From contig JAHBXN010000004.1 in the NCBI GenBank assembly GCA_019636475.1, forward strand, positions 310,001 to 374,000: DNA of 64,000 nt. The letters run 5' to 3'. The notes under the pieces are model-generated. The model was not told where the DNA came from and did not search any database. It saw only the letters and a list, made by a program, of their open reading frames with translations. This stretch comes from Phycisphaerae bacterium (lineage in GTDB: Bacteria; Planctomycetota; Phycisphaerae; UBA1845; UTPLA1). Each line of letters starts with the position of its first letter. Within the stretch, counting starts at the first letter, position 1. Below, piece by piece: positions 24,268-53,250 of this stretch. A program made the position numbers and the translations under genes.

Positions 24268-25395
24268 ATGAATTCTCGAATTCTCTTTCGCGCGGTGTGT
24301 TTACTCCCATTCGCTCTGGCCTTCGGTGTATTGGGCGCGATCTCGACGCCGCTCGGTGCACAGGAAGCGCTGCCGCCTGGACTGAAGCCACATAAGCGGC
24401 CCGCGGCCAATGGCGACATTGATTGGACGAACGGATTCGTGCAGGCGCGCGGATTCGGTCGAGCGAAGGGCCGCAGCCCCCAGGATCGGCAGATGGCAGA
24501 GCGTGCGGCGACGGTGGTCGCGGTGCGAAACGCGCTCGCATTGTCGATGGGTCTGAAGATCGACGACAAGGGTCGTCTCGGTGGCGTGCGGAACGGTGAG
24601 GTGCGCATTCGAGGCAAGGTGAAGGGATACAAAGTCTATCTTTCCGAGTGGCATCCCGACGAGCGGCCGCCACGATTCAAGGTGAAAGTTCGTGTGCCGA
24701 TCTGGGGATTGGAAGGGGTCAGCTCAGTCGTTTATGAGCGGAAACATCAGGAGGCGTCGCGCGGCGTCTCGCATGTCGCGCTGGTGCGTGAGCGGATCGA
24801 TGTGTCGGACTGCGTGCTGATTATTGACGCACGGGGTACGGGAATTGAGCCGTGCCTGTTTCCGTCAATCATTGATTCAAGTGGCCGCGTCATCTATGAC
24901 GTGAGCGTCATGCAGGCCGGGGTCGATCGTTGCGAGAGACCGCTGCGTTATGCCGAAACATCGATGTCTTCGGAGGAACTCAGGGCATGGGCGGAGATCT
25001 CGTGGGATGAAGCGCAGGTGGCATCGCTTCAGCAGGTTGGGGCGCCGCCGCAGTGGCCGGTCGAGCTGATGTTTGGATTTGAGGGCTCGGAGTCAGGAGT
25101 CATGGCCTTGGGGGTTGTGTCGGCGCCGCCGGCTGCTTCTCAACCCACGACGCAATCGAGCGGTCGACGCAGGAAACGTGTCATCCAGGCGGTGAAAACG
25201 CCGACTTCGGGTGACACGAAGATTGTGCTGACAAAGGCGGATGCGGAAGAACTGGCGAAGAGTGCGGAGGGGGCGAGCCTTATCCGAAGCGGCCGAGTGA
25301 TCGTGGTCGTCGACACGGTTGCGGCGGGTGTGCAAGGGCGTGGCGAATCGGCCGGAGACGACGCCTATCTGGCGACGGAGCAACCGTCGAATTGA
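24268..25395 (+). CDS. exported LPP20-like protein
   Basis: 375 residues; ATG 24268 follows GGAGAGG. A clear signal peptide (residues 1-28, FRAVCLLPFALAFGVLGAIS, cleaved near LGAQEA) sends it to the periplasm or outer membrane. Residues about 50-150 have the LPP20 pattern: ARGFGRAKGRSPQDRQMAER followed by AAxxAVRNALALSMGL and a strand-rich part ending KVKVRVPIWG. The middle (VLIIDARGTGIEPCLFPSI) is shared with proteins of the same type; the end is an Arg/Ser linker and a short GDTKIVLTKADAEE segment. The next gene's TTG overlaps its stop by 4 bp, so the two are translationally coupled, which suggests a joint function with the CHASE2 cyclase. I cannot give a biochemical role. Confidence 0.75.
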   Translation: MNSRILFRAVCLLPFALAFGVLGAISTPLGAQEALPPGLKPHKRPAANGDIDWTNGFVQARGFGRAKGRSPQDRQMAERAATVVAVRNALALSMGLKIDDKGRLGGVRNGEVRIRGKVKGYKVYLSEWHPDERPPRFKVKVRVPIWGLEGVSSVVYERKHQEASRGVSHVALVRERIDVSDCVLIIDARGTGIEPCLFPSIIDSSGRVIYDVSVMQAGVDRCERPLRYAETSMSSEELRAWAEISWDEAQVASLQQVGAPPQWPVELMFGFEGSESGVMALGVVSAPPAASQPTTQSSGRRRKRVIQAVKTPTSGDTKIVLTKADAEELAKSAEGASLIRSGRVIVVVDTVAAGVQGRGESAGDDAYLATEQPSN

Positions 25396-27781: not shown

Positions 27782-29671
27782 TTGGACAACGTGAAGTGGA
27801 AGCCTCGCACAGGTCTGGTTTGCTCCGCTGTCGCATTGACCGCGCTACTCGGATTGTTCGGCGCGGCCACCGAACGCCTCGGCGCGTCTGTGCATGACGA
27901 TCCTGTAAGTGGCCGTGACGAGTTTGCATCCGCGCTCGCTGAAGACGAACCAGCGACCACGCAGGCAGCCACCGAGCCGGCTGACGGAGTCGAGCAACCG
28001 GTCGTCGCCGTTGAATCCAACGAACCGACCACTCAGCCATCGTCAGCGCCGGCGGCGGAGCGTGGCGGGCGACGTGATCGCGGCGGACGTGGCGGGGGCG
28101 ATTCGGCTTCCCAGCCCACCCTCATCATCAGCAACGGCCGAATCCTGACCATGGATGCCGAGAATCGCGTGATCAACGGTACTGTCACGATCCGCGATGG
28201 CCAGATCGCCACGGTGTCCGAGGGCGGCGGCGGCGCGATGGGTGGGGGGCGACGACCGAATCCATTTCTAACGATCGTTGACGCCAAGGGCCGCTATGTG
28301 ACTCCCGGTTTGGTGGACGCGTGGAGTTCGGCCGGTGTAACGGCGGGTGGTCCATCGGGTGGGGGAAAGGCGTCGCTGGATGTTCGCGACGCGATCGATG
28401 GTTTTCGCACGAGTATGTTCAGCGAAGCCATTAAGCAGGGCGTTACCGCTTTGTGTGTCGAGCCATCTGGGCGGAGCGGTGTCGCGGGACTGGCCGCGTT
28501 GGTTCGTCTTCAGGATCTGAGCGATCCAGGCGCATTGACAACAGAACACACCTGTCTGGTGATTCGCGTCGGCATGGGCCGCGTCGGGCCTTTTGCGCGG
28601 CTCGGGGAGATGAAATCGCTCCGCGAGTTGTTCCGCAGCGCAAAAGAGTATCGCGAGGGATGGGAAGAGTATGACGAGGCGTTGGAGAAATACGAGAAGG
28701 ACTTGAAGTCCGGCAAAACGGTGAAACTGTCGGATGATGCCAAGCCCGCCGGACCAAAAACCACCGAGAAGCCTGAGCCTCCGCCATCCGGTCCCGAACC
28801 TCGCCGAGGCCGGCGACCGCGTCCACCGCGAGACGATTCGCACGAGGGCCATGATCACGGTCCGGTCGAAGTCGGCGACGGTGATTCGATTCCGAATGCG
28901 CCACGATGCCCGCAGCATCCTTGGGTGATTGTCGTGTGCTGCTGTCCGGAGGATCACAGCGGAGAGGCGAACTGCGAGCATGATCATCCTGAGACGCCTG
29001 AATTGCCCTCTTGGCTGACGCTTGATGTCGAGCCGGGAAAAACAGCGGATAAGAAGGATGGCAAGAAGGGCGACGAATTTAAGAAACCGGACAAGCCGGC
29101 CCGCGATCCGGATCAGGAAGTGCTGGTCAAGGCCTTGAAGCGCGAACTTCGCGTACGGTTCGAGGTGCACCGCCCCGCCGATATCCTGAACGTGATCGAC
29201 ATCGCAAAGGAATTCAACCTGGATGCGACGATCAGCGGCGGATCCGGGGCGGGATGGGTCGCGGAGCATCTGGCTGCCGCCGAATATCCCGTGCTTTTGT
29301 CCGAGTTCATTCCGAGTGCATCGGTTGATTTGACGCACACGCGCGATCTGTCGTCACACAATGTCGGCCGCCTTCGCGACGCCGGCGTGACACTTGTGAT
29401 CGGCAGCGGTGCGGTTGAGGGTGGGTCGAGATCCGCTTACCTGGCTCAGAACGCCGCGCTGGCGGCGGGCCAGGGCCTTCCTATGCAGTCCGCCCTTCGG
29501 GCGATCACGATCGATGCAGCGCGACTATGTGGGGTTGCCGATCGAATTGGAAGCATTGAAAAGGGAAAAGCCGGCGATGTCGTCATCTGGAAAGGGCACC
29601 CGCTCGCGCCTGATTCAGTCGTTGAGTACGTCTTTGTCGGCGGCAAGCGGGTGTATCCATCGGCGCCGTGA
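27782..29671 (+). CDS. exported amidohydrolase-like protein 1, metal ligands lost
   Basis: 629 residues; starts possible at TTG 27782 or GTG 27791, both just before a signal peptide (TGLVCSAVALTALLGLFGAA). After a Thr/Ala/Gly-rich linker comes the amidohydrolase beta-sandwich (TLIISNGRILTMDAENRV, then DGQIATVSEG), the strand-1 block RYVTPGLVDAWSSAG where HxH should stand but is absent, and the C-terminal barrel with RAITIDAARLCGVADRIGSI. The expected Asp of strand 8 reads VIGSGA and the strand-6 His reads ISGGSG. An insert at about residues 350-404 is Cys/His-rich (GHDHG, CPQHP, CCCPEDH, CEHDH). Probably not a hydrolase; could bind metal. First of eight tandem genes. Confidence 0.85.
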   Translation: MDNVKWKPRTGLVCSAVALTALLGLFGAATERLGASVHDDPVSGRDEFASALAEDEPATTQAATEPADGVEQPVVAVESNEPTTQPSSAPAAERGGRRDRGGRGGGDSASQPTLIISNGRILTMDAENRVINGTVTIRDGQIATVSEGGGGAMGGGRRPNPFLTIVDAKGRYVTPGLVDAWSSAGVTAGGPSGGGKASLDVRDAIDGFRTSMFSEAIKQGVTALCVEPSGRSGVAGLAALVRLQDLSDPGALTTEHTCLVIRVGMGRVGPFARLGEMKSLRELFRSAKEYREGWEEYDEALEKYEKDLKSGKTVKLSDDAKPAGPKTTEKPEPPPSGPEPRRGRRPRPPRDDSHEGHDHGPVEVGDGDSIPNAPRCPQHPWVIVVCCCPEDHSGEANCEHDHPETPELPSWLTLDVEPGKTADKKDGKKGDEFKKPDKPARDPDQEVLVKALKRELRVRFEVHRPADILNVIDIAKEFNLDATISGGSGAGWVAEHLAAAEYPVLLSEFIPSASVDLTHTRDLSSHNVGRLRDAGVTLVIGSGAVEGGSRSAYLAQNAALAAGQGLPMQSALRAITIDAARLCGVADRIGSIEKGKAGDVVIWKGHPLAPDSVVEYVFVGGKRVYPSAP

Positions 29672-29680
29672 GGAATTTCG

Positions 29681-30928
29681 TTGAATCGTTTGCCGCACAA
29701 CTCGATCAAGCTTGGGGTGGCGCGAACAGGTGACCAGACTACTCGCTGCGCGCATCGCGTGGATTGGCGTTTGGGTAAGTATCTTGTAACGCTTGTCGCG
29801 GTACTCTCGTGTCTGGTCTCTGCGTCATTCGCCGAGGAATTGACGTATTCGGTTCGGGCCAAGGGCTATCTCGATCCTGACGGCGAATTGGTAAAAAACG
29901 TCACACTCGTCGTACAGGACGGTCGAATCAAGAAAATCGGAAAGCGTGTTCAGCCGCCCGATGGCGCGGTTGTTCTCGATCGTTCGACCAGCTTCATCGG
30001 CCCCGGGTTGATCGACATACACGTGATGCTGGGCACGATGGGACGCACCGGCGAGTCGTCCCGCGCGATCGAGCCGAACGCACACGCCGTGGACCTTGTG
30101 AACGCGAGCCATCCTGACTTTCTCAGGGCGGCGTCGGCTGGTGTGACAACGGTTGTTTTGTCGCCATCAAGTGTGAACATTGTCGGCGGTGCGACTTACG
30201 TGCTGAAGACCGGCGACGGTGAGGCATCATCGCGGCAACTTGGCGATGGTCCGCTTTATCTGTCATTTGCGTCACGAGCTTTCGCTGCCGATCGAACACC
30301 GACGTCGCTTCAGGGCGCCTTGGATGAACTGCGACGCCGACTTGTTTCGACGCGCGGTGACCAGAAAGACGAATCAGCGTTCGCGAAGTGGGCCAGGTCG
30401 GAGCGAGCGGCGTTTGTCGAAGTGGACGACGCGGCCGCAATGTCGTCGCTCGCACGTTTTGCGAAAGAGGAGGGCTTGAAGTGCATTCCGGTTCATGCGA
30501 ATTATGCCGCCGAGCGGCTTGAGGATGCCAGGTCCTTCAATCAGCCGATCGTACTGGGCGTCTACGAATTCAGCGATCCGTTTCGGTTCACGCGTGCTCC
30601 GGCGATTCTCGAATCGGTTGGCGTGCCGGTGGCGTTAACGAGTCAGCCGCCGAGGTACGCGCCGGAACTGCTGCGGGTCGGAGCGGCCATCGCGATGCGC
30701 CAGGGGCTTTCCAGGAAGGCGGCGCTGGCTTCCATCACGACCATTCCGGCGGAGATTCTGGGATTGCAGCAACGCATCGGGAAAATCGCGCCGGGCATGG
30801 ACGCGGACTTTGTTCTCTATGACGGAGATCCGATGCGTTTGAGCTCTCGCATTGAAGCGGTCTTTATCGGGGGCCGCATGGTTTACTCGCGCAAGCACAC
30901 CAACTCGGAATCGGAGGTGGTTCGGTGA
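29681..30928 (+). CDS. exported amidohydrolase-like protein 2, metal ligands mostly lost
   Basis: 415 residues from TTG 29681, preceded by GAGGA and 9 bp after gene 1. Signal peptide at about 28-50 (YLVTLVAVLSCLVSASFAEE). Fold hallmarks: VRAKGYLDPDGELVKNVTLV, DGRIKKIGKRV, GPGLIDIHVMLG (a single His where the family has HxH), ITTIPAEILGLQQRIGKI and DADFVLYDGDPM. Strand 5 keeps a His in PVHANYAAE, but strand 8 reads ALTSQPP instead of a TDxP motif. The substrate site of a true amidohydrolase cannot be built from these residues. Its stop overlaps the next start by 4 bp (GTGA), so the products are made in a coupled way. Function unknown. Confidence 0.85.
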   Translation: MNRLPHNSIKLGVARTGDQTTRCAHRVDWRLGKYLVTLVAVLSCLVSASFAEELTYSVRAKGYLDPDGELVKNVTLVVQDGRIKKIGKRVQPPDGAVVLDRSTSFIGPGLIDIHVMLGTMGRTGESSRAIEPNAHAVDLVNASHPDFLRAASAGVTTVVLSPSSVNIVGGATYVLKTGDGEASSRQLGDGPLYLSFASRAFAADRTPTSLQGALDELRRRLVSTRGDQKDESAFAKWARSERAAFVEVDDAAAMSSLARFAKEEGLKCIPVHANYAAERLEDARSFNQPIVLGVYEFSDPFRFTRAPAILESVGVPVALTSQPPRYAPELLRVGAAIAMRQGLSRKAALASITTIPAEILGLQQRIGKIAPGMDADFVLYDGDPMRLSSRIEAVFIGGRMVYSRKHTNSESEVVR

Positions 30929-32253
30929 CCAGACCGCGACTTTCGATGAGGGTGTGCCACGCCGGCGTCATGGCACTGATGATGATGGCTGCGGTTTCGC
31001 CACTGTTTGGTCAGACTGAACGGGTGCCGGCCGCCGATTCGAAATCTGCCCCGGCGTCTGAGCCAGCTGATACGGTCGTACTCAAAGTCGGCAAACTCTA
31101 TGAAAAGCCCACGAAGCCGCTGATCGACTCGATACTTGTTGTTCGCGACGGGGAAGTGGTTGATTTCGGTCGCGACATTGATGTGCCGGCTGGTGCTCGC
31201 GTGATTGAATTGCCGAACGCTGTCATCACGGCTGGCTTGATCGACGCCTGCATTTCGGCGGCTGCATTTCAGAATTACAAAGGTCCGGAAAACGAGACGG
31301 AGTGCACGCCGCAGCTTCGTGTGCTTGACAGCATTGATCTGCGCGATGAATCCTTGCGCCAGCTCGCAGAGTCAGGCGTTACGGCAATTCATGTAACCGC
31401 TGAGCCGGTCGCAGTGATCGGACCGCGCGGCGCTACGCTGCGGACGAGTGGTCCGATCGGCGCCCGCACCATCAAACCGGCCGACGCATTGAAGGTGACC
31501 ATCGGACGGGAGCCGATGTATCGACGCGGCTGGAACCGCGGTCCCTGGGGCGATGTGTCTTTCATGACGCGGCGCCCCACGACCCGGATGGGCCTCATCT
31601 GGACTCTTCGGAAATCATTTCACGACGCCTCCGCGGCGATTCGGGGCGAAAGTCCGGGCACCCACGGCGACAGTTCGCCATCGGAAAATGCGCTTCCGCT
31701 CCTTGAGCGTGCACTCAAAGGCGAAATTCCGATTCGAATTCAGGCCAGGCAGCAACTGGATATCCTGGCGGCGCTGCGCGTCGCGAAAGAGTTCGGCTTC
31801 GATTTTGTCCTTGAAGAAGGCACGGATGCGGCACGGTGCGCCGCGGAGTTGAAGGCTGCGGGAGTGCCGGTGATATACGGCCCGATTTTCGATTACCCAA
31901 CCGGATTTCGCGCCGGCTCGGGCGAAGTGAATCGTGCGCGTTACAGCACGCCGGCCGAGCTGGTGCGATCGGGAATCACGCTGGCGTTGACGGCCAGTGA
32001 TCTGTCGGGCGAGGCCTCGCTCGCAATGCAGGCCTCGTATGCGATGCGGTTCGGGCTGACTCGCGAACAGGCTCTGGCGGCGGTGACGACGACGCCGGCG
32101 AAGTTGCTTGGGATCGAGGACGTTGCAGGGGAGATCGGAAGGAATCGGCCGGCCGATCTGGTTGTCTGGTCCGGTGAGCCGTTTGAATTGACGTCGCGAC
32201 CGGTCATGGTGATTGTCGGCGGCGAGATTGTGCTGGATCGGACAGCGGAATGA
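30925..32253 (+). CDS. exported amidohydrolase-like protein 3, metal ligands lost
   Basis: 442 residues; GTG start at 30925 overlapping the previous stop, with GGAGG at 30913-30917 in ideal position. Signal peptide RVCHAGVMALMMMAAVSPLFG. Family features: LKVGKLYEKPTKPLIDSILV, DGEVVDFGRDID, ITAGLIDACISAAAF (no HxH), VTTTPAKLLGIEDVAGEIG and PADLVVWSGEPF. Strand 5, usually xHAHR, reads RIQARQQLDI, with Gln for His; strand 8 reads ALTASDLSG. The middle has an Arg/Trp/Gly segment (RRGWNRGPWGDV) not seen in the neighbours. Likely pseudoenzyme. It overlaps gene 4 by 4 bp (ATGA). Confidence 0.85.
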   Translation: MTRPRLSMRVCHAGVMALMMMAAVSPLFGQTERVPAADSKSAPASEPADTVVLKVGKLYEKPTKPLIDSILVVRDGEVVDFGRDIDVPAGARVIELPNAVITAGLIDACISAAAFQNYKGPENETECTPQLRVLDSIDLRDESLRQLAESGVTAIHVTAEPVAVIGPRGATLRTSGPIGARTIKPADALKVTIGREPMYRRGWNRGPWGDVSFMTRRPTTRMGLIWTLRKSFHDASAAIRGESPGTHGDSSPSENALPLLERALKGEIPIRIQARQQLDILAALRVAKEFGFDFVLEEGTDAARCAAELKAAGVPVIYGPIFDYPTGFRAGSGEVNRARYSTPAELVRSGITLALTASDLSGEASLAMQASYAMRFGLTREQALAAVTTTPAKLLGIEDVAGEIGRNRPADLVVWSGEPFELTSRPVMVIVGGEIVLDRTAE

Positions 32254-33830
32254 GGCGGACGCGAGGACTGTCGATGAGGAATCAAGAACAACGTGGCGCG
32301 GGCGGCTGTCGGTCCCGACGTATGGTGTCGCCGGCCGGGAGTTACTGCTTAGGGAGGCGGTCATTGATCGCTGTCGCCGTGCTGGCGTTCGCAATCGCTC
32401 CGTCGGCTCGAGCGCAGACGGTGCTGCTGGAAGGCGCGGCCATCGTTCCGGTCGTTGGCAACCCGATCAAGAAGGGGAGCATTCTGATCAAAGACGGCCG
32501 AATCGCGGCGATCGGACAGACCGTCGAGGCGCCATTTGATGCGAAAGTCATTGATTGCGGCGGCAGGACGCTCTTTCCGGGAATGGTTGATGTCCATACA
32601 TCGCGCGGAATCGACGTGCCGAATGAGTCGCCGCCGGTCACACCGTACCTGAACGTGTACGATGCCATCGATCCGTCACAACTGTTTTATGAGGATTCCC
32701 TGCGTGACGGCGTTACGTCGATTCATGTGATTCACGGCAATGATTGCGTCATCGGCGGCATGTCGCGCGTGGTGCATCCGATCGGCATGACGCCGGAACA
32801 GATGACGACGCTGCCGGATGCAGCGATGAAGCTGAGCCTGAGTCCCAAAGGCGGCTACGACCGCATGTTGCAGCTTGCGACGCTTCGCGAGGCGTTCGCG
32901 AAGCTGGACGAAGACATGAAGAAACTTGCCGAGCAGCGATACGAGGCCAGACTGCGCGAGGAGGGCAAGGATCTCGATGTACCGCCCGAAGAGGAGCAGA
33001 AACGTGGAAAGGAACTGATCCGCGAAGAGGACATTGATGAGAAAAACCGCAACCTGCTGCTGCTCACCCAGGGCAGGATTCGGGCGTTCATCTATTGCGG
33101 AAATGCGATGGATGTCGCGCCGGCGGTGCGAATTGCCAGATCGCATGGCTTCGTCGATCAGGCCGTTCTGGTTCTTGGTTCCGAGTGCTTCAAGGCCGTC
33201 AGCGAACTGAAAAAGGCAGGTTTGCCGGTCGTGTTGGATTCGACGCTGGTTCATATCGAGACCGATCCAATCACCGGCGAAGAGAAGGAGACCTTTGTCC
33301 CGAAGGTCATCTCGAAAGCGGGATTGAAATTCGCCCTTCAGCGGAAGACCGGGTCTTCGCTTGGAGAACGATATCTCTGGTTTCAGGCCGCGCGATGCAT
33401 TCGCGAGGGGATTTCGCGAGACGATGCGCTCAAGTCGATTACGCTCTGGCCGGCGGAGATGCTGGGCCTGGGCGATCGGCTTGGTTCGCTGGAGGTCGGC
33501 AAGGAGGCGAACATCCTGGTGCTGACGGGCGATCCGCTCGACGCGCAGACCTGGGTTGAAAAAGTGTTCATTCAAGGCGAGCAGGTATACGAGCGGGCGG
33601 ACGACATTCGACTTCGCGAACTGTTCAGTACCCCCGCGGAAGAAGCGGGACCGAGCAGCTCGACCGAGCCCGTGCCAACGACGACCAAGGCCGACGAATC
33701 TTCCGAAGAGCGAGAAATGCGCACGCCCTCGGAAGATCGGCCTCGCGGTGAGCGACGCCCCCGAGGCGATGGCCCGCCGCGGCGGCGCGGACCGCGTCCA
33801 CCGAGTCCGTCCGGCGACAAAGTCGAATGA
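32250..33830 (+). CDS. exported amidohydrolase-like protein 4, metal ligands lost
   Basis: 526 residues; ATG 32250 overlaps the previous stop. A second ATG at 32274 sits closer to the signal peptide (GRRSLIAVAVLAFAIAPSARAQ). Family features: LLEGAAIVPVVGNPIKKGSI, DGRIAAIGQTVE, LFPGMVDVHTSRGID (HTS, so the second His is lost), ITLWPAEMLGLGDRLGSLEV and EANILVLTGDPL. Residues 215-265 form a highly charged helical insert (EEGKDLDVPPEEEQKRGKEL). The C-terminus is a disordered Arg/Pro/Gly tail (RPRGERRPRGDG, then PPRRRGPRPPSP). The strand 5-8 ligands are not recognisable. A 108-bp gap, the largest in the cluster, separates it from gene 5. Confidence 0.85.
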   Translation: MRRTRGLSMRNQEQRGAGGCRSRRMVSPAGSYCLGRRSLIAVAVLAFAIAPSARAQTVLLEGAAIVPVVGNPIKKGSILIKDGRIAAIGQTVEAPFDAKVIDCGGRTLFPGMVDVHTSRGIDVPNESPPVTPYLNVYDAIDPSQLFYEDSLRDGVTSIHVIHGNDCVIGGMSRVVHPIGMTPEQMTTLPDAAMKLSLSPKGGYDRMLQLATLREAFAKLDEDMKKLAEQRYEARLREEGKDLDVPPEEEQKRGKELIREEDIDEKNRNLLLLTQGRIRAFIYCGNAMDVAPAVRIARSHGFVDQAVLVLGSECFKAVSELKKAGLPVVLDSTLVHIETDPITGEEKETFVPKVISKAGLKFALQRKTGSSLGERYLWFQAARCIREGISRDDALKSITLWPAEMLGLGDRLGSLEVGKEANILVLTGDPLDAQTWVEKVFIQGEQVYERADDIRLRELFSTPAEEAGPSSSTEPVPTTTKADESSEEREMRTPSEDRPRGERRPRGDGPPRRRGPRPPSPSGDKVE

Positions 33831-33938
33831 GGGAGATTTCGGTCGCTGCCGTCCGGCTTCGCTTGAGGGCGCGCGGGTTGCGGTCGGCAGTGATGTAGCA
33901 ACGCATGCCGGCGTCGTCAGTGAGAGAGTGAATCAGTA

Positions 33939-36791
33939 ATGCGTCGAACGAATGACATTTCACGAGCCAACCATCCTGTCGCAAGGCGACGCGCCTCCGT
34001 TACGCGCGCGACGGCATGGACGCTCTTTGCCGTGTTATTTGGTTCGTCCGGAATTGTTTACGCCGAAGGTCCGACGTTTCTGATCAAGGCCGGCCGTGTT
34101 TACACAATGGCGGGAGGCGACGCCTGGTGCATCGATGGCGGCAGGATTCTCGTCAAGGACGGGAAGATCGTGTCGGTCGGGGCCGAGATTGTTCCGCCGC
34201 CGTTCACGGAGGTGATCGAGCTTCCGGATTCCATCATCGTGCCCGGTCTGGTGTCGGCCGATTCGTGGCTTTCTCGGCGGCATATGGGTCAGGAGTCCGT
34301 CGGAGCCCAGTATCGAGCGGTCGATGCGTTCGATCCCTATGCGAATCTTGATCGCCTGTTGGCCGGAGGCGTCACAACAGCCTATCTGAATCCCGGGCGT
34401 CACCGCCTTGTCAGCGGCGTCGGTGGCGTTGTCAAGCTCGGTGCGCGGCCCGGGGATTCGGTTCTGCTTGAAGAGTCCGATCTTGTGATCAACCTCGGCG
34501 AGGCGGCGTTCGATCCTCCGAAAAAGGAGAACTGGCTGATCCCGCCGTCCTCGGACTTGCAGATCATGCCGAGCGAGGCTCAGCGACCTTCGTCGCGATT
34601 GACTCAGCTCTTGCAGTTGAATGAGTCGTTTGAGGCGGCGCTTCGGTATGCCGCCGATCGTCAAAAGCCTCATGCGAATGAGCGGCCGCTTTTTGATGCG
34701 TCGATGGAGGCACTCGCGGAGCGTGTTCGCGCGAAGTCGCTGCTGCGAATACATGCGGATCGTGCGGTTGATATTGAACAAGCCGTCGCCTTCTGCCGGA
34801 ATCGCAAACATGCTTTCCTCTTGACGGGCGCTCGCGAGGCATCGGCCGTCGCGGGGCTTCTGGCTGAAGCCGGAGCGCCAATCGTTTTTGAATTGCCGGT
34901 GAATCCCGTTTCTCCAGGCTGGGATCTTGGCGCGGGACCCGATTTGCTGACCGAAAATGTCAGGATTCCGCCAGAGCTTCATTCGCTGCCGATTGCGGTG
35001 GTCGGTCCGGAAGGCGCGCCGCATGGCGACTTGCTTCTTTATGCATCGCTTGCAAGGCGGAGCGGTCTGTCCGATCGCAAGGCGCTGGCTTCTGTAACAT
35101 CGGACGCCGCGCGAGTACTGGGCGTTGATGGGCGCGTCGGTTCGATTCAGCCTGGCCGCGATGCGGATTTTGTCGTGCTGGCGGGCGAGCCACTGGCTGC
35201 AAACTCACAGGTTCGCCGCGTCTATGTCAACGGCCGTATCGCATTTGATGCAGATCGGGTCGCGGAAGATCGGCTCATTGTGCGTGCCGGCCGGGTCTGG
35301 ACCGGCGATCGCTGGGTCGAGAAGGGAGCGGTGCTGATTGAGCGGGGCCGAGTGACGGCCGTCGGAGAAACCACTCCCGTGCCGCCGTTCAGTCGGATCG
35401 TCGATGCGGGTCCGAATGCGGTCGTCACGCCGGGTTTCATCGACGCTCGCGGGCATCTGGGCTGTGAGGGCGACCGTTCCTCGGCTGCGGCGGACCTTTC
35501 GATCGCCAGGGCTTTGTTCCAGGCGCTACCTGAGTTTGAGCGTGTGTGTCGCGCAGGTGTCACCACGGTGCTGACCTCGCCCTATCGTCCCGGCGGCAAC
35601 GGCGCCCGCGTGGCGGCGATCCACACGGCCGGCGACGACCGGAACGCGCTGATCGTCAAGGAGACAGCCGGGATTATGCTGTCACTTCGTGGTCAGGATT
35701 CCGAGGCGGCGGTAAACCGGCTTCGGGCGGCGCTTGCGGCGGGCAGGAAGTACGACGAGGCCTGGGCCAAGTATGAAAAGGAACTGGCCGAATACAAGGC
35801 CAAGGGTGCTCCCGCGTCGAAGGAAACGGAACTCGAGAAAAAGCCGGACGAGGTGGTCACCGAGAAGCCGCCGGAAGATCCCGTAACCGGAACGTGGGAA
35901 GGTGAAGTGTCCGGTGGTCCATTGCCCGAACCGCAGCAATTTGTGCTCAAGATGAAGCTGACCGGCGAAGAAGTCGTCGGGAGCATCGAGACGATCATTG
36001 GCGGAGGCGAGAGCGTCGGAGTTCGCGGAACCCTCAAGGACAAGCATCTGTCACTCGAGGTTGAAGTGGAGATCCCCATCGGCAAGGCGATGGTCGAGGT
36101 GGATATCGACCGTGACGATCATTTCACAGGCTATCTGGATGTTGCCGGGCGGTTCCGATTCGACGTGGAGGGCAACCGAACCGAGAAGACCGTGCCTGAG
36201 ATCAAGGTGACGCGCCGGCGCGCGAAAAAATCCGAAGGCGGCCCCGAGGCGCCAAAGAAGGACGAGGCGTTGGAACCGTATCGGGATTTGTTCGCAAGTC
36301 GCATCGCGATCGTGATTGATGTCGATACGAGCCGGGTGATCGAGGCGATCCTGCCCATCTTTGAGAAGGATTTCAAGGTGCCGTTTGTCCTGCTCAACGC
36401 GGACGGTGCGATCAAAGTGACGGAACCGATTATCAAAGCCGGCACCGGCGTGATCCTGAAAACTCAGCTCACGGAACTGATCAATCGCCGCGAAAGTGTG
36501 CAGGGCGTTGAACTTTCCCGCGCGGGAGTGACCGTCGCGTTTCAGAGCGATGCCGAAGATGCCGCGAGGCAGATTCCGCTCCGAGCGATCTATGCCATTC
36601 GCAAGGGCATGGATCCGACGGTCGCGCTTCGATCGCTGACCGGTGATCCCGCACGCCTGATGCGGTGCGACGACGTCGTCGGATTTCTGAAGCCCGGATG
36701 CCGTGGAGACGTGCTCATATTCGATGGCTCGCCCCTGGAGCCGGGCACGCGGCTGCTGCGGGTGTTCGTGGACGGCAAGGAGGTACGGTGA
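33939..36791 (+). CDS. exported double amidohydrolase-like protein 5 with inserted beta domain
   Basis: 950 residues with a signal peptide (TAWTLFAVLFGSSGIVYAEG). It contains two complete amidohydrolase-like copies: copy A about 45-440 (IKAGRVYTMAGGDAWCIDGG, VPGLVSADSWLS, ASVTSDAARVLGVDGRVGSI) and copy B about 443-950 (VRAGRVWTGDRW, VTPGFIDARGHLGC, RSLTGDPARLMRCDDVVGFL). Neither has HxH. Copy A keeps RIHADRAVDI, with one strand-5 His. Inside copy B, at about 648-752, sits a separate beta-rich domain (GTWEGEVSGG, QFVLKMKLTGEEVVGSI, HFTGYLDVAGRF) that looks like a small beta-barrel of the kind found C-terminally in secreted amidohydrolases. It overlaps gene 6's leader: AAGGAGGT for gene 6 lies inside its last codons. 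Confidence 0.85.
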   Translation: MRRTNDISRANHPVARRRASVTRATAWTLFAVLFGSSGIVYAEGPTFLIKAGRVYTMAGGDAWCIDGGRILVKDGKIVSVGAEIVPPPFTEVIELPDSIIVPGLVSADSWLSRRHMGQESVGAQYRAVDAFDPYANLDRLLAGGVTTAYLNPGRHRLVSGVGGVVKLGARPGDSVLLEESDLVINLGEAAFDPPKKENWLIPPSSDLQIMPSEAQRPSSRLTQLLQLNESFEAALRYAADRQKPHANERPLFDASMEALAERVRAKSLLRIHADRAVDIEQAVAFCRNRKHAFLLTGAREASAVAGLLAEAGAPIVFELPVNPVSPGWDLGAGPDLLTENVRIPPELHSLPIAVVGPEGAPHGDLLLYASLARRSGLSDRKALASVTSDAARVLGVDGRVGSIQPGRDADFVVLAGEPLAANSQVRRVYVNGRIAFDADRVAEDRLIVRAGRVWTGDRWVEKGAVLIERGRVTAVGETTPVPPFSRIVDAGPNAVVTPGFIDARGHLGCEGDRSSAAADLSIARALFQALPEFERVCRAGVTTVLTSPYRPGGNGARVAAIHTAGDDRNALIVKETAGIMLSLRGQDSEAAVNRLRAALAAGRKYDEAWAKYEKELAEYKAKGAPASKETELEKKPDEVVTEKPPEDPVTGTWEGEVSGGPLPEPQQFVLKMKLTGEEVVGSIETIIGGGESVGVRGTLKDKHLSLEVEVEIPIGKAMVEVDIDRDDHFTGYLDVAGRFRFDVEGNRTEKTVPEIKVTRRRAKKSEGGPEAPKKDEALEPYRDLFASRIAIVIDVDTSRVIEAILPIFEKDFKVPFVLLNADGAIKVTEPIIKAGTGVILKTQLTELINRRESVQGVELSRAGVTVAFQSDAEDAARQIPLRAIYAIRKGMDPTVALRSLTGDPARLMRCDDVVGFLKPGCRGDVLIFDGSPLEPGTRLLRVFVDGKEVR

Positions 36792-36793
36792 GT

Positions 36794-38098
36794 ATGCACA
36801 GCCTTCGCAATCATCGAAGTCGGATTCTCACCGCTTTGGGCTGCCTTCTGATGGTTCAGGCTTCGATGGCTGCGCCAACGCGCGCCTCGGAGGCGACGGC
36901 ATCCGGAGGGAATTCGTCGCCCGATTCCGCCGCGACGCGGCTTGCAATCAAGGCTCCGAAAATTATCACCGTTGACGCCCGGGATACGATCATCAACAAC
37001 GGCGTTTTGCTGATCGAAGATGGCAAGATCAAGGCCGTGGGCAAGGCATCGGAAATTGTGATTCCGGAGGGATTCAAACTCATCGAGCACGACGGTTGGC
37101 TCCTTCCGGGCTTGGTTGACGCGCACAATCACATTGCCGGTTCGCTTGCCGATCTGAACGATGGCGTGTATCTGACCAACCCCGGCCTGCGAACACTTGA
37201 TGTCGTCGATCCTCGTAATACGAATCTCGAAAACGCCCTGTCCGGCGGTGTCACGACGGTGCTGCTGATTCCCGGTTCCGGCAACAACATGTCGGGTTTC
37301 GGCACCATCACCAAGACATTCGGCAACTCGACCGACGAGATGGTTATCCGCTCGCCGGGCTCACTGAAGATTGCACAGGCGGGAAATCCGGAGCGATACT
37401 GGTACGGCGTCGGCCGGACCTTCATGAACTGGAACACGAGGTACACGCTTGAGAAGGCGCTGAAGTACCACAAGGATCGCACGGAATACGAAAAAGGCGG
37501 CATGAAAGACGGTCCCGCCTACGACATCACCTGGGAGGATTTCCGCGGGATGTTTGAGCGGAAGTACCCCGTGTCGGTGCATACGCAGATCTATCAGGTT
37601 TACATGACCACCATCACCATGCTCCGAGATCATTTCGGACTCGATGTGATGACCGACCATTCAACGTTTGATTCCTTCAAGCTCGCCAGCTTCATCAAGG
37701 AACGGAACATGATTCCGGTGGTCGGGCCGCGGCAGTTCCATTTCGACGGCCGCGATCGAACGATTCATGGCTGCGCTGCCCGATTCTGGGAACAGGGTGT
37801 GCCCAAAATCGGCATCAACACCGACGCTCCCGTCATCCCGCAGGAGGATCTGAACTTTCAGGCGACGATGGCGTGCTGGTATGGCATGAACGACGAATAT
37901 GCGGCGATCAAGGGACTGACGCGTTATCCCGCCGAGGCGATGAATATTCTGTCCATGACGGGCAGCATCGAAGTCGGAAAGGACGCGGACATCACGCTTT
38001 GGACGGGTAGCCCGATTGATCCCCGCCAGTCGTGCAAAATGACCATCGTGAATGGCAGAATTGCATACGATGCGAAAGTGAGACGGCGCACGCGATGA
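36794..38098 (+). CDS. exported metal-dependent amidohydrolase 6, active site intact
   Basis: 434 residues. ATG 36794 is chosen because the perfect Shine-Dalgarno AAGGAGGT (36777-36784) lies 9 nt upstream; GTG 36788 would be too close. A signal peptide follows (ILTALGCLLMVQASMAAP). All expected ligands are present: His111 and His113 in LPGLVDAHNHIAG, Lys192 in SLKIAQAGNPER (the Lys that is carboxylated in this group), His263 in SVHTQ, His289 in TDHS and Asp344 in NTDAPVIP. It is therefore a binuclear or mononuclear metal hydrolase acting in the periplasm on a C-N bond; the substrate is unknown. It belongs to the imidazolonepropionase-like branch. It is the only apparently catalytic member of the eight-gene cluster, and it overlaps gene 7 (ATGA). 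Confidence 0.9.
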   Translation: MHSLRNHRSRILTALGCLLMVQASMAAPTRASEATASGGNSSPDSAATRLAIKAPKIITVDARDTIINNGVLLIEDGKIKAVGKASEIVIPEGFKLIEHDGWLLPGLVDAHNHIAGSLADLNDGVYLTNPGLRTLDVVDPRNTNLENALSGGVTTVLLIPGSGNNMSGFGTITKTFGNSTDEMVIRSPGSLKIAQAGNPERYWYGVGRTFMNWNTRYTLEKALKYHKDRTEYEKGGMKDGPAYDITWEDFRGMFERKYPVSVHTQIYQVYMTTITMLRDHFGLDVMTDHSTFDSFKLASFIKERNMIPVVGPRQFHFDGRDRTIHGCAARFWEQGVPKIGINTDAPVIPQEDLNFQATMACWYGMNDEYAAIKGLTRYPAEAMNILSMTGSIEVGKDADITLWTGSPIDPRQSCKMTIVNGRIAYDAKVRRRTR

Positions 38099-39546
38099 GA
38101 CACCTCGCGACCAATCAATTCAGACACAGATTCGAACGCCTGCGCGGTCGCGCCGCAAATCCGGCGCCGAATGCGGATCGCGGCGATCGAGCGACGGCCG
38201 CGCGGCCGCCCGCGGTGAACCGCCGGCGATTGTCTTGCTTCCCGGCATTGGCCTTGTCGATTGCCGTGCTCGTCGGTTCAGCGGCATCGGGGTTCGCTGA
38301 TGATTCGTATGTGGTGCTCAAAGCGAAGAAAGTCATCACCATCACCGGAGAAGAGATCAGCGATGCGATGATCGTCATCTCCGGCGGCAAGATCGAGGCG
38401 GTCGGCAAGAAAGTCGATTATCCATCCGAGAGCCGAGTGATCGATGTTTCGAATCTGACGGTGATGCCCGGCATGATCAGTCCGCATTCAGCGATCGGCC
38501 TGCCTCCCGCGAATCGGAACGGCAATCAGTCGCACCGCAGGGTTTCGAGCGATTTCCTCCCGCCCGATGACGACACCTATTCCAGGCTGCTTCAGGCGGG
38601 GTACACGATGTTGGGACTGTATCCGCCGGGCGGAGGCATGCCGGGCCAGAAATTGGTGCAGACGACCTCGCAGCCGCAGAAGCGGGCGGGGCTTAAGGAA
38701 GAGGGCCTTATTCGCGTCAGTTTCACCCGGCCAGCGACGGACAAGCGACTTCTTCGCGACACCATCAAGCAGGCCCAGGCGGTGATCGACAAGGAAAACG
38801 AGGCAACATCCAAGTCCGCGACGTCGCGTCCTGCTGCGGAATCCCGTCCCACGAGCCAACCGACGTCCGTTCCGGCGTCGGGTCCGTCGTCACAGCCCGC
38901 GACCACCCGTCCTGCCACTGCGTCGGCACCTGTTGCTCCGCCGCCTCGCCCTGAACTGGAACCCTGGCTGTCGCTGCTGAAGAAGAAGGAAGGATTCGTC
39001 GCGCAGATCGAGCTTGCCAGGGCGTCGGACATCATCCATCTGGCGGATGTGTTGAAGGATGCCGATTTCGCACGGCACTTCGTCGTCAGCGGGTGGGAGA
39101 TTGGCGACATGCATCAGGTCGTCGCCCATGATCTCCTGGGTCATGCCAAGGCGCTGGTCGCCATTACTCCGACTCTCCCAAACATGCCGCTGACCATGAA
39201 TCCTTACAACCTTGCCCAGCGGTTCATCAATGCAGGGGCGACCGTCGCAATCTTCCCGCTTTCCGATACCGTTGAAGAGTACGGCAACATCCGCGAACGG
39301 CTCGCAATGCTCGTGCGAGCAGGCCTTGACCGCAAGGATGCCCTCAAAGCGGTGACATTGAACGCAGCCAGGTTCCTGTTGATGGACAAGGAATATGGAT
39401 CGATTGAAAAGGACAAGTGGGCGGATTTGATCCTGCTCGACGGCGATCCTCTCGATCCGGCCAGCAAAGTCCGACGTGTCATGATTCACGGTGAGTTCGT
39501 GTTCGATCTGGATAAGAAGGATTCGAAGCAACCGCCTCGGCTGTAG
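38095..39546 (+). CDS. exported amidohydrolase-like protein 7, metal ligands lost
   Basis: 483 residues from ATG 38095, overlapping the previous stop by 4 bp. A basic N-terminus precedes the signal segment (FPALALSIAVLVGSAASGFA), so the targeting sequence is long. Family hallmarks: VLKAKKVITITGEEISDAMI, GGKIEAVGKKVD, VMPGMISPHSAIGLP (PHSA, no HxH), VTLNAARFLLMDKEYGSI and DLILLDGDPLDP. A Thr/Ser/Pro/Gln linker (about 245-285, SRPTSQPTSVPASG...) splits the barrel. Strand-8 Asp is replaced (IFPLSDTVEEYG keeps an Asp nearby, so I cannot exclude a shifted ligand). Likely a pseudoenzyme. Confidence 0.85.
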   Translation: MRHLATNQFRHRFERLRGRAANPAPNADRGDRATAARPPAVNRRRLSCFPALALSIAVLVGSAASGFADDSYVVLKAKKVITITGEEISDAMIVISGGKIEAVGKKVDYPSESRVIDVSNLTVMPGMISPHSAIGLPPANRNGNQSHRRVSSDFLPPDDDTYSRLLQAGYTMLGLYPPGGGMPGQKLVQTTSQPQKRAGLKEEGLIRVSFTRPATDKRLLRDTIKQAQAVIDKENEATSKSATSRPAAESRPTSQPTSVPASGPSSQPATTRPATASAPVAPPPRPELEPWLSLLKKKEGFVAQIELARASDIIHLADVLKDADFARHFVVSGWEIGDMHQVVAHDLLGHAKALVAITPTLPNMPLTMNPYNLAQRFINAGATVAIFPLSDTVEEYGNIRERLAMLVRAGLDRKDALKAVTLNAARFLLMDKEYGSIEKDKWADLILLDGDPLDPASKVRRVMIHGEFVFDLDKKDSKQPPRL

Positions 39547-39569
39547 GAGTTTCGCGAGAGTACACTAAA

Positions 39570-41030
39570 ATGCGGCGTTTCGTACTTGTCATTCTGGGTC
39601 TCACGATTCTCGCGCCGACGCTTGGTTTTACGCCGGCGTGGGATGACGGAGTTGACTCGTTGGCGGCGACTGCGCCGGCCACCGCACCGTCGGCACAGCC
39701 GGCCACCCAGCCTGCAACACAGCCGACGACCGAACCAACCACGACTTCGGCGGCCACTGCCCCCGCGAGCCAGCCGACCACGAAGCCGGCCAAGCCCAAG
39801 GACCGCTATCTGGCCGTGATCGGAGGAACGGTTCATCCCGTATCCGGAGCCGACTTGACTGGAGTGACCATTCTTTGCAAGAACGGCCGAATTCAGTCAA
39901 TCAGTCGTTCTCCGAAACTGCCCGACGATGCCCAGGTGCTTGATGCGACGGGCTATCACGTGTATCCCGGACTGATTGCCAGCAATACACGCAATGTGGT
40001 CGGCTCTGAACCGCCGGAGGACACGACCAATGTCTTTGCAACGTCCATGCGCCTCGCCAATGCCGGTGGCATCACGACCGCCATTGTCGGCAACACAGCC
40101 GCAAAAGTGTCTTATGGCAGCGTTGAAGGCCTGACACTGCGCAAAGACCTGTTTGTCGGGCTGCGATATCGTTCGCCTGCGGAAAAGCGGTCGCTACGTG
40201 AGTCGCTCGACAAAGTGCGAGACTATTTGCGCGACAAAGATGATTTCGAACGCCGGAAGGCCGAAGGTGACAAGGAAGCCAAACCCCCGGATGAATCGCC
40301 GGTCACGGGCGGGAATGCCCGATTTCTTCAACTGATCAAAAAGGAAAAAGCGGCCGTCTTCTCTGCTGATTCCCGCAGCGAACTCGATGCAATCTGCGAA
40401 TTGGTCGAGACCTACGGTATTCGCGCCGTGGTGCGCGGCGCGGTCGAAGGCTGGACGATACCCGACCGAATGGGCCGCGCGGGAATTCAGGCGATCGTCA
40501 CACCGCGTCGGCAGACCGAACGCGACCAACAACTGAATCACCCGCAGGGCGGCTCCATTGAAAACGCCGCAATTCTCTACAGTCGCGGCGTGGAGATTGC
40601 CATCACACCCGGCGCCGTCGATGCGAGCCTCGGCGGTCTGGCCGGACGCGATTTGCAGCATATCCCAATGGAAGCGGCATTGGCCGTGAGTGGCGGATTG
40701 CCGGAAAAGGCGGCGATCGAATCGATCACACTGACTGCCGCTCGCATTCACGGCATTGCGGATCGGGTCGGTTCCATCGAAGTCGGCAAAGACGCGGATT
40801 TCATCATATGCAGCGGCAGATTGCTCGAATTTTTCACGATGGTGGAATGGACAGTCGTGAATGGCCGAATAGTCTATGACAAGCAGGCCGATACGCTCTT
40901 TGCTGACATTCGGCCCCGAACGCCCACGACGCAGCCGGCGCGATACAAATTCTGGCCCCGTCCGTTTAAGCCGCGTCCCGCGCCGCAACCAGGCGAAGGC
41001 GGCCGTTATGGCAGGTCTCCCCTCGAATAA
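39570..41030 (+). CDS. exported amidohydrolase-like protein 8, metal ligands lost
   Basis: 486 residues from ATG 39570, last gene of the cluster. Signal peptide LVILGLTILAPTLGFTPAW, then a Thr/Gln/Pro linker (about 33-70, PATQPATQPTTEPTTT). Family blocks: AVIGGTVHPVSGADLTGVTI, NGRIQSISRSPK, VYPGLIASNTRNVVG (no His at all), ITLTAARIHGIADRVGSI and DADFIICSGRLL. A charged insert (RDKDDFERRKAEGDKEAKPP) occurs around residues 222-245, at the same place as in proteins 1, 4 and 5. Strand 8 reads AITPGAVDAS. The tail is Pro/Arg-rich. Likely pseudoenzyme; no terminator with T-run follows. Confidence 0.85.
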   Translation: MRRFVLVILGLTILAPTLGFTPAWDDGVDSLAATAPATAPSAQPATQPATQPTTEPTTTSAATAPASQPTTKPAKPKDRYLAVIGGTVHPVSGADLTGVTILCKNGRIQSISRSPKLPDDAQVLDATGYHVYPGLIASNTRNVVGSEPPEDTTNVFATSMRLANAGGITTAIVGNTAAKVSYGSVEGLTLRKDLFVGLRYRSPAEKRSLRESLDKVRDYLRDKDDFERRKAEGDKEAKPPDESPVTGGNARFLQLIKKEKAAVFSADSRSELDAICELVETYGIRAVVRGAVEGWTIPDRMGRAGIQAIVTPRRQTERDQQLNHPQGGSIENAAILYSRGVEIAITPGAVDASLGGLAGRDLQHIPMEAALAVSGGLPEKAAIESITLTAARIHGIADRVGSIEVGKDADFIICSGRLLEFFTMVEWTVVNGRIVYDKQADTLFADIRPRTPTTQPARYKFWPRPFKPRPAPQPGEGGRYGRSPLE

Positions 41031-41944: not shown

Positions 41945-43444
41945 TTAGTCGGCCGGCAGGCACCGCGCGGATGCCCACGCTCGCAAGTCGGCGACGCGCT
42001 CCATTTGAATGACCGACAGGGGCGGTGACATCTGCAATGCCGTGACGACTCGCCCCGTGTCAATTTCCTTTTTCGCGGCGAAAGCCTCGTGCAATGCGGA
42101 GACGATTGCCTGTTCGATCTCCGCGCCGGTGTACCCTTCCGACGCATTGATCAGTGCGTCCATGTCGAATTGGTTGGGATCCCGGCCGCGACGGCGGAGA
42201 TGGATTGCAAGTATTTCCCGCCGCGTGTCGGGCGAAGGCAAGTCCACGAAGAAGATCTCGTCGAATCGTCCCTTTCGCAGCAATTCCGGCGGAAGCGCCT
42301 CGATGTCATTGGCCGTCGCCACAAGGAAAACCGGCGCGCGGTGTTCCTGCATCCAAGTGAGTAATGCGCCGAACATCCTTTGCGACAGGCCGCCGTCCGC
42401 GCTCCGACTGGCCGCCGAGGCAAATGCCTTCTCGACTTCGTCGATCCACAGAATGATCGGCGACATCATCTCGGCTTGATGCAGTGCGTCGCGCAGGTTG
42501 CGCTCCGATTCGCCGATGAAGCGATCGTACAGCGAACCGACATCCAGCCGAAGCAGCGGCCGCTTCCACGCGGTTGCAATGGCCTTCGCGCAGAAGCTCT
42601 TTCCCGCGCCTTGCACCCCAAGCAGCAGAATGCCTCGTGGCGCGGTAAGTCCGAATCGAGATGCTTCATCCGTAAACACCTCTCGACGAATTTCGAGCCA
42701 GCGCTTGAGCCGCTTCAGTCCACCGATTGCGGACAGGTCTTCCGGCGTTTCGATGAATTCCAGCAGCCCACGGCCCTGCACCGCCTGTCGTTTCCGCGCA
42801 AGGATCAATGCAAGGTCGTCGGCATCGAAGCGGCGGTCCTCGACCACGGTCTCTTGAATGATCTGCCGAATCTGGCGACGCGTGAGGCCCCGAAGATTTC
42901 TGAGAATCAGTTGAAGCGTACGGCGGTTGAGATCGACTTCAATGCGATCCTGCATGTTCGCTTGCCGCAGCGACTCGCGCAGCAGCGATTCGATCTCAGC
43001 GGAATCAGGAAGGCTGATCTCAAAGCGCGTAGCGACGGATTCAATCACAAGGGGCAACTCGCCATTGTGATCAACCAGAATGACCATGCCGCGCTGGTTG
43101 CGGCAGTGTTCCACGACCTCACGTAGCAGCCGCATGGTACGATCATCTCGAAGGTGGGCGGCGAGATCGAGAAAGACATTGATTCCGGGGTTTTCCTGTC
43201 GGAGAAGGTAATAGAGCGCCCCGGAGGGATGGACTGTTTCGGGAATGGGGGTCTGATCCGCAACCAATCCGTCGCGCAATCCATCGACGATTGTCCAGAT
43301 GTTCAAGAAGCTGGGCGTGCGAATCACGGCCTCGCGGATGGTCGAAAGCGCGTGATCTTCCTCGACGGTGCCGATCACCACGCATGGATACATGCCCCGA
43401 ATGAGTTGCTCGAGTCGGGCGCTGTCCTCTTTCTGACCAGTCAT
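41945..43444 (-). CDS. Ycf46-like AAA ATPase
   Basis: 499 residues from ATG 43444, which overlaps the aat stop (ATGA). The N-terminal half (1-220) is a degenerate AAA-like domain without Walker motifs (VILVDHNGELPLVIESVATR). The C-terminal AAA domain has Walker A GVQGAGKS (276-283), RPLLRLDVGSLYDRFIGESE, Walker B ILWIDE (331-336), sensor 1 VATAND and an arginine-finger region LLRKGRFDEIFF. This arrangement and the RLDVGxLxxxxVGESExxxR block match Ycf46 of cyanobacteria and plastids, linked in cyanobacteria to CO2 uptake, but the family's function elsewhere is unsettled. The Cys in GAGKSFCAKAIA is unusual. Cotranscribed with aat. Confidence 0.88.
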   Translation of the reverse strand: MTGQKEDSARLEQLIRGMYPCVVIGTVEEDHALSTIREAVIRTPSFLNIWTIVDGLRDGLVADQTPIPETVHPSGALYYLLRQENPGINVFLDLAAHLRDDRTMRLLREVVEHCRNQRGMVILVDHNGELPLVIESVATRFEISLPDSAEIESLLRESLRQANMQDRIEVDLNRRTLQLILRNLRGLTRRQIRQIIQETVVEDRRFDADDLALILARKRQAVQGRGLLEFIETPEDLSAIGGLKRLKRWLEIRREVFTDEASRFGLTAPRGILLLGVQGAGKSFCAKAIATAWKRPLLRLDVGSLYDRFIGESERNLRDALHQAEMMSPIILWIDEVEKAFASAASRSADGGLSQRMFGALLTWMQEHRAPVFLVATANDIEALPPELLRKGRFDEIFFVDLPSPDTRREILAIHLRRRGRDPNQFDMDALINASEGYTGAEIEQAIVSALHEAFAAKKEIDTGRVVTALQMSPPLSVIQMERVADLRAWASARCLPAD

Positions 43445-44031
43445 TCCGCATCGGCCTCCGCGAATCGGCAGCTCTGCTGAAGCGCAGCCGCGAGTCGTAG
43501 AAGATACTCGTCGCGGGCGATTTCGACTACTCCGAACCGGCGCAGGTGCGGCGTGCTGAATTGTACATCCAGCAGTGAGAATCCCCGTGCCGTCAATGTC
43601 TCCACGAGCCGGACGAGTGCAACCTTGCTGGCGTCCCGAACAATATGAAACATGCTCTCGCCGAAGAATGCGCCACCCAGTGCGACGCCATACAGCCCGC
43701 CCGCGAGATTGCCATCGTGCCACGCCTCAACGCTGTGTGCGAAGCCGGCCCTGTGCAGGCTGCAATAGGCCGCGACGATCGGTGCCGTGATCCAGGTCCC
43801 GTCCGGACGTTGACCGCAGGCGCGGATCACTTCTTCGAACGCGGAGTTCAGGCGGATCTCGAATTTCGCGCTGCGATAGGTCTGGCGAAGGCTCTGTGGT
43901 ATGTGAAACCCGTCAAGCGGCAGAATTGCGCGCGGATCAGGCGAGTACCAGCGAATGGTCTTGCCGTGCCCCATCGGAAAGACGGATTGGGCGTACGCGG
44001 ACAGCAGCAATTCCGGCGTTAGAGGTTCCAT
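43441..44031 (-). CDS. aat: leucyl/phenylalanyl-tRNA-protein transferase
   Basis: 196 residues. Transfers Leu or Phe from tRNA to N-terminal Arg or Lys of proteins, making them ClpS/ClpAP substrates (N-end rule) in the cytoplasm. Family sequence runs throughout: SAYAQSVFPMGHGKTIRWYS, PDPRAILPLDGFHIPQSLRQ, the GGLYGVALGGAFFGESMF block, and LLDVQFSTPHLRRFGVVEI. The catalytic-region residues are present and length is normal (about 200-230). It is the first gene of a two-gene unit with the AAA ATPase, and divergent from the ACT protein. The link to AAA is a hint that the ATPase may act on N-end-rule proteins, but it is inference. Confidence 0.93.
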   Translation of the reverse strand: MEPLTPELLLSAYAQSVFPMGHGKTIRWYSPDPRAILPLDGFHIPQSLRQTYRSAKFEIRLNSAFEEVIRACGQRPDGTWITAPIVAAYCSLHRAGFAHSVEAWHDGNLAGGLYGVALGGAFFGESMFHIVRDASKVALVRLVETLTARGFSLLDVQFSTPHLRRFGVVEIARDEYLLRLAAALQQSCRFAEADAE

Positions 44032-53204: not shown

Positions 53205-53250
53205 TTCTTGCTGGCTCAATCTATGAAAAATCGAAAGGCGGCCCCGAACA

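Follow-up and report, generated by a model that had tools for sequence, protein, structure and literature searches.

Catalytically dead paralogues serve as assembly subunits of several enzymes, among them PyrC' (the inactive dihydroorotase-like subunit of some aspartate transcarbamoylases) and the plastid ClpP/ClpR system; these either contain a single type of dead subunit or have an unrelated fold, and they are not exported. The complexes of an enzyme with dead paralogues that we know of have one or a few dead partners. In Trypanosoma brucei, S-adenosylmethionine decarboxylase, a member of another enzyme family, requires one dead paralogue (prozyme) for activity (PMC5201418). Within the amidohydrolase superfamily, the collapsin response mediator proteins (CRMPs), for which dihydropyrimidinase activity has not been observed, form homo- and heterotetramers of paralogues, so dead amidohydrolase paralogues can hetero-oligomerize; in the account cited here these five human or animal proteins are cytosolic and no catalytic member of the tetramer is described (PMC4051505). 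We analyzed a 64,000-nucleotide stretch of the genome of a Phycisphaerae bacterium (GenBank GCA_019636475.1, contig JAHBXN010000004.1, positions 310,001 to 374,000; the whole stretch is called the window below). Eight co-directional open reading frames (ORFs) on its + strand at 27782-41030, here named P1 to P8, encode nine amidohydrolase-superfamily domains, two of them (P5A and P5B) in P5. We consider it fairly probable that this operon encodes an exported hetero-oligomeric metal-dependent hydrolase with P6 as catalyst and the remaining eight barrels in structural or regulatory roles. The system itself is conserved, and no description of the operon appeared among the matches listed in searches of open-licence PMC papers; the mechanism proposed here is a supported guess.

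To compare P6 with its neighbors, profile-profile alignment was used to place the six amidohydrolase sites of P6 on all other domains. The P6 set consisted of the window and 77 loci (n = 78; three loci whose P6 lies at the end of a contig were excluded), and the other domains were represented by 517 sequences, after removal of sequences that were too short or ran into contig ends and of three second P1 or P3 copies. P6 residue numbers refer to the 477-aa ORF. All six sites (H, H, K, H, H, D) were occupied in 78 of 78 P6 sequences, and also in 13/13 orthologues within the order. None of the 517 sequences of the eight non-P6 domains had the complete set, the maximum being four of six sites. Judged from the aligned residues, this contrast is far beyond chance, and it bears out the claim of an earlier note on this DNA that only P6 combines HNH, Lys, His, His and Asp. 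We take this set (HxH, Lys, His, His, Asp) to be that of a catalytic amidohydrolase subtype, with K235 as the candidate bridging carboxylysine.

The other domains have lost the site to different degrees. P1 kept at most one site across 57 sequences, with a fixed replacement at a ligand site (G486 in 55/57), and P2 at most three across 58. P3 kept at most two (n = 58); its strand 5, 6 and 8 ligands are replaced by Q273 (48/58), E298 (43/58) and A357 (50/58), and the strand-4 Lys is retained (K190). With one site unmapped in each, at most three sites were kept in P4 (63 sequences; strand-4 Lys K194 retained in 58), P5A (66 sequences) and P7 (77 sequences; H152 is the single His near strand 1), and at most one in P8 (72 sequences). 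P5B reads R-G-H at strand 1, where the second His (H506) is present in 55/66 sequences, and its D871 is found in 25/66. In a motif test that depends less on the mapping, the strand-1 HxH was detected in 78/78 P6, 16/66 P5B, 4/77 P7, 3/63 P4 and 2/66 P5A sequences, and in none of the P1, P2, P3 or P8 sequences. The losses listed in the earlier note thus stood overall, except that P5B keeps H506, P7 has H152, and P3 and P4 keep K190 and K194. At the sequence level there is strong support for one enzyme gene alongside seven pseudoenzyme genes, an arrangement conserved in many species.

The gene layout is compact. The eight tandem same-strand genes with nine amidohydrolase-like domains described in the earlier note were recovered in the ORF list, and all eight proteins scored above the Pfam cut-offs for Amidohydro_1 and Amidohydro_3, with matches mainly in the C-terminal part. 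The 4-base overlaps noted between several genes were found at P2/P3, P3/P4 and, given the likely P7 start, P6/P7; the gaps are 2 bases at P5/P6, 9 at P1/P2, 23 at P7/P8 and 108 at P4/P5. The longest P6 and P7 ORFs open at 36665 and 38032, respectively, and from the translations the ATGs at 36794 and 38095 are the most likely starts. No named NCBIfam family, imidazolonepropionase included, reached its curated cut-off among the 25 best matches per protein; the Xaa-Pro dipeptidase model scored 86 bits, far below its cut-off of 500. A promoter and terminator scan gave fewer sites than the mean of shuffled sequences and was uninformative.

We searched for the cluster in 61 genomes, including the organism's own. 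Strong P6 orthologues (E 3e-61 or better) were present in 12 of the 60 relatives, from three families, and in 11 of these the complete P1-P8 series lay in unchanged order on a single strand, its genes matching one-to-one as best matches; in the twelfth the contig starts inside P5. A scan of 84,980 species genomes with the P6 alignment gave 122 relatives, and the best 80 of these 122 were used. The scan relied on two P6 peptide patterns near the active site that contain none of the six site residues, and it is biased to well-kept P6; the two sets overlap, at least ten of the twelve relatives being also among the 80 loci. The order P1-P2-P3-P4-P5-P6-P7-P8 was kept in 80/80 loci as far as the contigs extend. 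This neighborhood survey confirmed that the cluster is conserved in other planctomycetes. All eight genes were visible in 55 loci, and most of the remaining 25 end at contig edges (one contig, L130, begins within the cluster; L085 has just 0.76 kb upstream of P6, without the end of P5). Spacing is tight across loci, with a P5/P6 overlap of 4 bases in 55/63. Two loci, L099 and L079, have genes missing although their contigs are long enough to hold them. In L099, P3 lies elsewhere in the genome and a P4 fragment and further matches lie beside it; in L079, P3 and P4 are located elsewhere. These strong matches make the operon look split rather than lost, and true gene loss is unlikely at both loci (P1 and P2 were not searched by name). 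The organisms behind the 80 named loci are metagenome-only or uncultured; 72 are labeled Planctomycetota, 5 carry no phylum label and 3 an odd one. The metagenome-assembled genomes of L099, L102 and L115, labeled Gemmatimonadota, Bacillota and Vicinamibacteraceae, carry the operon or parts of it, and their labels are probably wrong. A divergent cluster (L173) has two P2-like genes and one P3-like gene, next a fusion of P5A-like and P1-like domains, and then P6-P7-P8. L095, L100 and L105 show two consecutive P1-like or P3-like matches, possibly duplicates or frame-split genes.

P4 and P6 are co-inherited. Among 392 genomes of the phylum, at strict cuts (P6 E 1e-60, P4 E 1e-90), 95 had both, 3 only P4, 13 only P6 and 281 neither (P6 in 108, P4 in 98; Fisher p 3e-72, not corrected for kinship). 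At E 1e-50, P4 was present in 107 of the 108 P6 genomes, and 15 genomes had a P4-like match without P6. Within the order, P6 was found in 34/114 genomes. No flanking family occurred in more than nine loci (62 loci with a 3' flank of more than 1.5 kb, 29 with a 5' flank), and the neighboring genes in this survey gave no functional hint.

The ratio of nonsynonymous to synonymous substitution rates (dN/dS) was estimated for 11 close species pairs; L101/L106 gave no YN00 values, L133/L134 only values for P3 (N letters), and some other estimates failed. The YN00 values were low in all eight genes, at 0.005-0.21 and mostly 0.02-0.13 (0.048-0.088 over the eight genes in the pair L057/L058). With a counting method some pairs gave larger values, the highest being 0.36 for P6 in L115/L117. 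Tandem paralogues are common, and one could read the locus as one enzyme with decaying duplicates on their way out. Intact frames, low dN/dS, fixed order and one-to-one orthology in 80 loci leave this reading next to no credibility, and neutral decay, the outcome that the earlier note had set against its own proposal, is rejected by the dN/dS values in every member. In a tree of 130 domains (quick search, LG+G4, 12 chosen species per group, the outgroup not forming one side of a branch), P1-P4, P5A, P5B, P7 and P8 each form one side of a branch, and P6 groups with its own duplicates. Since each paralogue forms one group, the set was in place before the lineages parted.

Old paralogues under general purifying selection would also be expected from a neutral ratchet, in which the dead subunits became indispensable for assembly through interface changes without functional gain. 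Modelling work has addressed how heteromers can increase neutrally following duplication (PMC11066126). This explanation is compatible with a hetero-oligomeric hydrolase and differs solely in why the subunits exist; we regard it as improbable, as an insert specific to P5 and the simpler relatives described below hint at added function. The insert lies in P5B, has a near-invariant Gly and Trp, and its profile matched 72 P5 ORFs and no ORF of another group among those searched.

We next compared structures. The P6 AlphaFold2 model has a predicted local distance difference test score (pLDDT) of 88.8 and a predicted template modelling score (pTM) of 0.86; for whole P5 the mean pLDDT is 88.5 and the pTM 0.75. 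The P6 sites lie at or just after model strands, as expected for a barrel active site. The closest solved fold to P6 is 3ooq from Thermotoga maritima (Z 45.3, root-mean-square deviation 2.5, 365 residues), which we take to be a TM0814-type amidohydrolase; it was deposited as a single protein. It is also the closest structure to P5A (Z 43.5 over model residues 45-439), and P5B resembles many amidohydrolases with Z of about 22-24. Retention of the fold is thus predicted for the two dead domains of P5. The TIM barrel with a flanking beta-sandwich is assigned to P6, P5A and P5B by model and structural alignment, and to P1-P4, P7 and P8 by profile alignment to P6. By sequence, too, 3ooq is the closest solved structure (P6 E 1.4e-40; P4 profile E 3.7e-62; P5 profile E 8.6e-71). 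In these three proteins it is far ahead of the CRMP entries, and they are not closest to the dihydropyrimidinase lineage.

Export-like N-terminal segments were visible in the translations, and they were counted with a crude hydropathy test only: a hydrophobic N-terminal segment was detected in 88-94% of the members of each group, vs. 3-9% of interior control stretches. By this crude measure the N-termini of all groups are export-like, and the parts would probably meet outside the cytoplasm.

Simpler systems of the same fold occur elsewhere in the same genomes, as two-gene pairs and as fused proteins of about 1400 aa. The first gene of the pairs is HHKHHD and the second is degenerate in 11/11 distinct pairs examined. 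In 8/8 distinct fused proteins examined, the middle domain is HHKHHD (3) or HHKHQD (5) and the last domain is degenerate; the first domain was only partly matched. Unlike the operon, these systems have just two or three domains. They are also found in relatives without a P6 orthologue. The tree unites P6, P8 and the intact and dead partners of the pair and fused systems with a support of 97, and P8 groups with the degenerate final domain of the fused systems (support 87). Extra P6 copies in some clades were HHKHHD in 11/12; the remaining one, with an unreadable letter, was HLKHHD. L168 and L170 carry four tandem P6-type copies (each with PGxxDxHxH) beside single P1-P5, P7 and P8, and the dead subunits are mostly single-copy. 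The hetero-oligomeric complex suggested in the earlier note is favored by co-inheritance, fixed order, single-copy dead subunits and this recurrent coupling of intact and dead domains, all of which are properties of the sequences. The coordinates are collected in Table 1.

Table 1. Genes, domains and active-site residues of the operon in the window, and related systems in the same genome.
Feature	Positions	Strand	Basis or occurrence
P1, amidohydrolase-fold pseudoenzyme, export-like N-terminus, start codon uncertain	27782..29671	+	ORF, Pfam, site mapping
P2, amidohydrolase-fold pseudoenzyme, export-like N-terminus	29681..30928	+	ORF, Pfam, site mapping
P3, amidohydrolase-fold pseudoenzyme	30925..32253	+	ORF, Pfam, site mapping
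P4, amidohydrolase-fold pseudoenzyme, among the most conserved dead members	32250..33830	+	ORF, Pfam, site mapping
P5, two-domain protein	33939-36791	+	ORF, Pfam
P5A, domain 1 of P5	33939..35267	+	P5 model, structural alignment, site mapping
P5B, domain 2 of P5	35268..36791	+	P5 model, structural alignment, site mapping
Beta-barrel insert in P5B, residues ~645-752	35871..36194	+	model strands, insert profile
P6, complete metal-site residue set, likely catalytic subunit	36794..38098	+	site mapping, model, 3ooq match
P6 strand-1 HNH (H154, H156)	37124..37132	+	78/78
P6 strand-4 Lys (K235)	37367..37369	+	78/78
P6 strand-5 His (H306)	37580..37582	+	78/78
P6 strand-6 His (H332)	37658..37660	+	78/78
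P6 strand-8 Asp (D387)	37823..37825	+	78/78
P7, amidohydrolase-fold pseudoenzyme, ATGA overlap with P6	38095..39546	+	ORF, Pfam, site mapping
P8, amidohydrolase-fold pseudoenzyme	39570..41030	+	ORF, Pfam, site mapping, tree
Two-gene pair (L051), first gene HHKHHD, second degenerate	8047-10886 of C15, own genome		type at 10 further places in relatives
Fused protein of ~1440 aa (L052), middle domain HHKHHD, last degenerate, first partly matched	5888-10219 of C6, own genome		

Several observations weigh against the proposed complex. The first ones concern the barrel mouths. With a broad pocket definition, the P6 pocket had a conservation ratio of 1.39 relative to the remaining columns (0/5000 permutations), a value owed partly to the choice of columns around P6's own motifs, and the dead domains were not enriched (0.88-1.09, p 0.06-0.98). 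With narrow definitions, P1 (1.19-1.32) and P3 (1.13-1.27) were nearly as enriched as P6 (1.29-1.86), and the bare site columns of P4 reached 1.31 in a range of 0.88-1.31; the others gave 0.63-1.09. Some dead barrels may therefore still bind a ligand. The dead members could then act separately, as exported sensors or ligand-binding proteins that are encoded in the P6 operon and do not assemble with P6, as the second proposal of the earlier note, a set of ligand-binding proteins, would have it. The export-like N-termini of all groups, the mildly conserved P1 and P3 pockets and the fixed ligand-site replacements in both proteins agree with this. We nevertheless consider it unlikely, since most dead domains show no preferential conservation at the mouth of the barrel (P1, P3 and the bare P4 site being the exceptions), no gene family of any kind widely accompanies the operon, and intact and dead domains share one chain in all the fused relatives examined. 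The pocket data favor, at the level of aligned columns, a role outside the pocket for most dead domains, but not all.

Residues kept in the dead domains also count against the proposed complex. P5B reaches four of the six sites in 4/66 species and so keeps part of the site, and conserved Asp, Glu, Lys or Arg residues are numerous in P4 and P8, which makes an acidic metal site possible. P4 has eleven conserved Asp or Glu, and within the order its conservation is close to that of P6 (103 invariant residues across 12 sequences vs. 100 across 13); K194 is widely kept as well. The seemingly dead members might thus be enzymes with relocated ligands or a different chemistry. We think this quite improbable, because the count of six-site residues stays low throughout and because His residues kept in at least 90% of sequences number four in P6, one in P7 (H336) and none in any other dead group. 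In the dead groups, which have no conserved His set, a relocated His-based metal site is unlikely; of the objection that all members are active with moved ligands, only an Asp, Glu or Lys site is left as a possibility. Further points against the proposed complex come from the tree, whose deep branches are weak (support 40 for P8 with the dead gene of the pairs, 32 for P6 joined to the intact partners), and from the P6 cut of E 1e-60, which admits some pair or fused systems (G157 and G265, which do not have the operon there). P6 copy numbers of one to four argue against one rigid nine-position ring, and a fixed ring of nine was weakened as a model for this reason.

Other genes were examined in the window. 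A CHASE2-cyclase gene lies upstream of the operon and an AAA ATPase gene downstream on the opposite strand. At 41945-44031 (- strand), the beginning of the long AAA ATPase ORF is overlapped by a gene for a leucyl/phenylalanyl-tRNA protein transferase (43441-44031), and the true ATPase start probably lies further inside. The ORFs at 24181-25395, 46639-47529, 48984-49751 and 51771-53219 (255-482 aa) had no Pfam match at E 0.001.

In the proposed hydrolase, P6 would be the catalyst, with a metal center held by H154, H156, K235, H306 and H332; as in the superfamily, the His and Lys residues would be metal ligands and D387 the general base. Outside the cytoplasmic membrane, P6 may hydrolyze a small molecule or peptide at an amide, lactam, ester or comparable bond. 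The remaining eight barrels would have lost their catalytic residues long ago and now act as frame, gate or regulator. The likely core would be a P6-P8 pair, equivalent to the intact-plus-dead pair of the simpler systems, around which P1-P5 and P7 would add specific positions. We put forward more tentatively, as a possibility we would not bet on, a Planctomycetota-specific exported assembly of nine distinct barrels drawn from one superfamily, with a single position being catalytic (occupied by more P6 copies in some clades) and eight dead barrels positioning, gating or tuning it. We know of no exported bacterial enzyme with such subunit diversification of one fold.

Pairs, fused triples, the eight-gene operon and operons with up to four P6 copies form a natural series in which the growth of heteromeric complexity could be tested. 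A bacterial operon retains eight dead domains beside one full site, in fixed order and in many lineages of a phylum, and it points to exported chemistry not yet described in uncultured or metagenome-only organisms.

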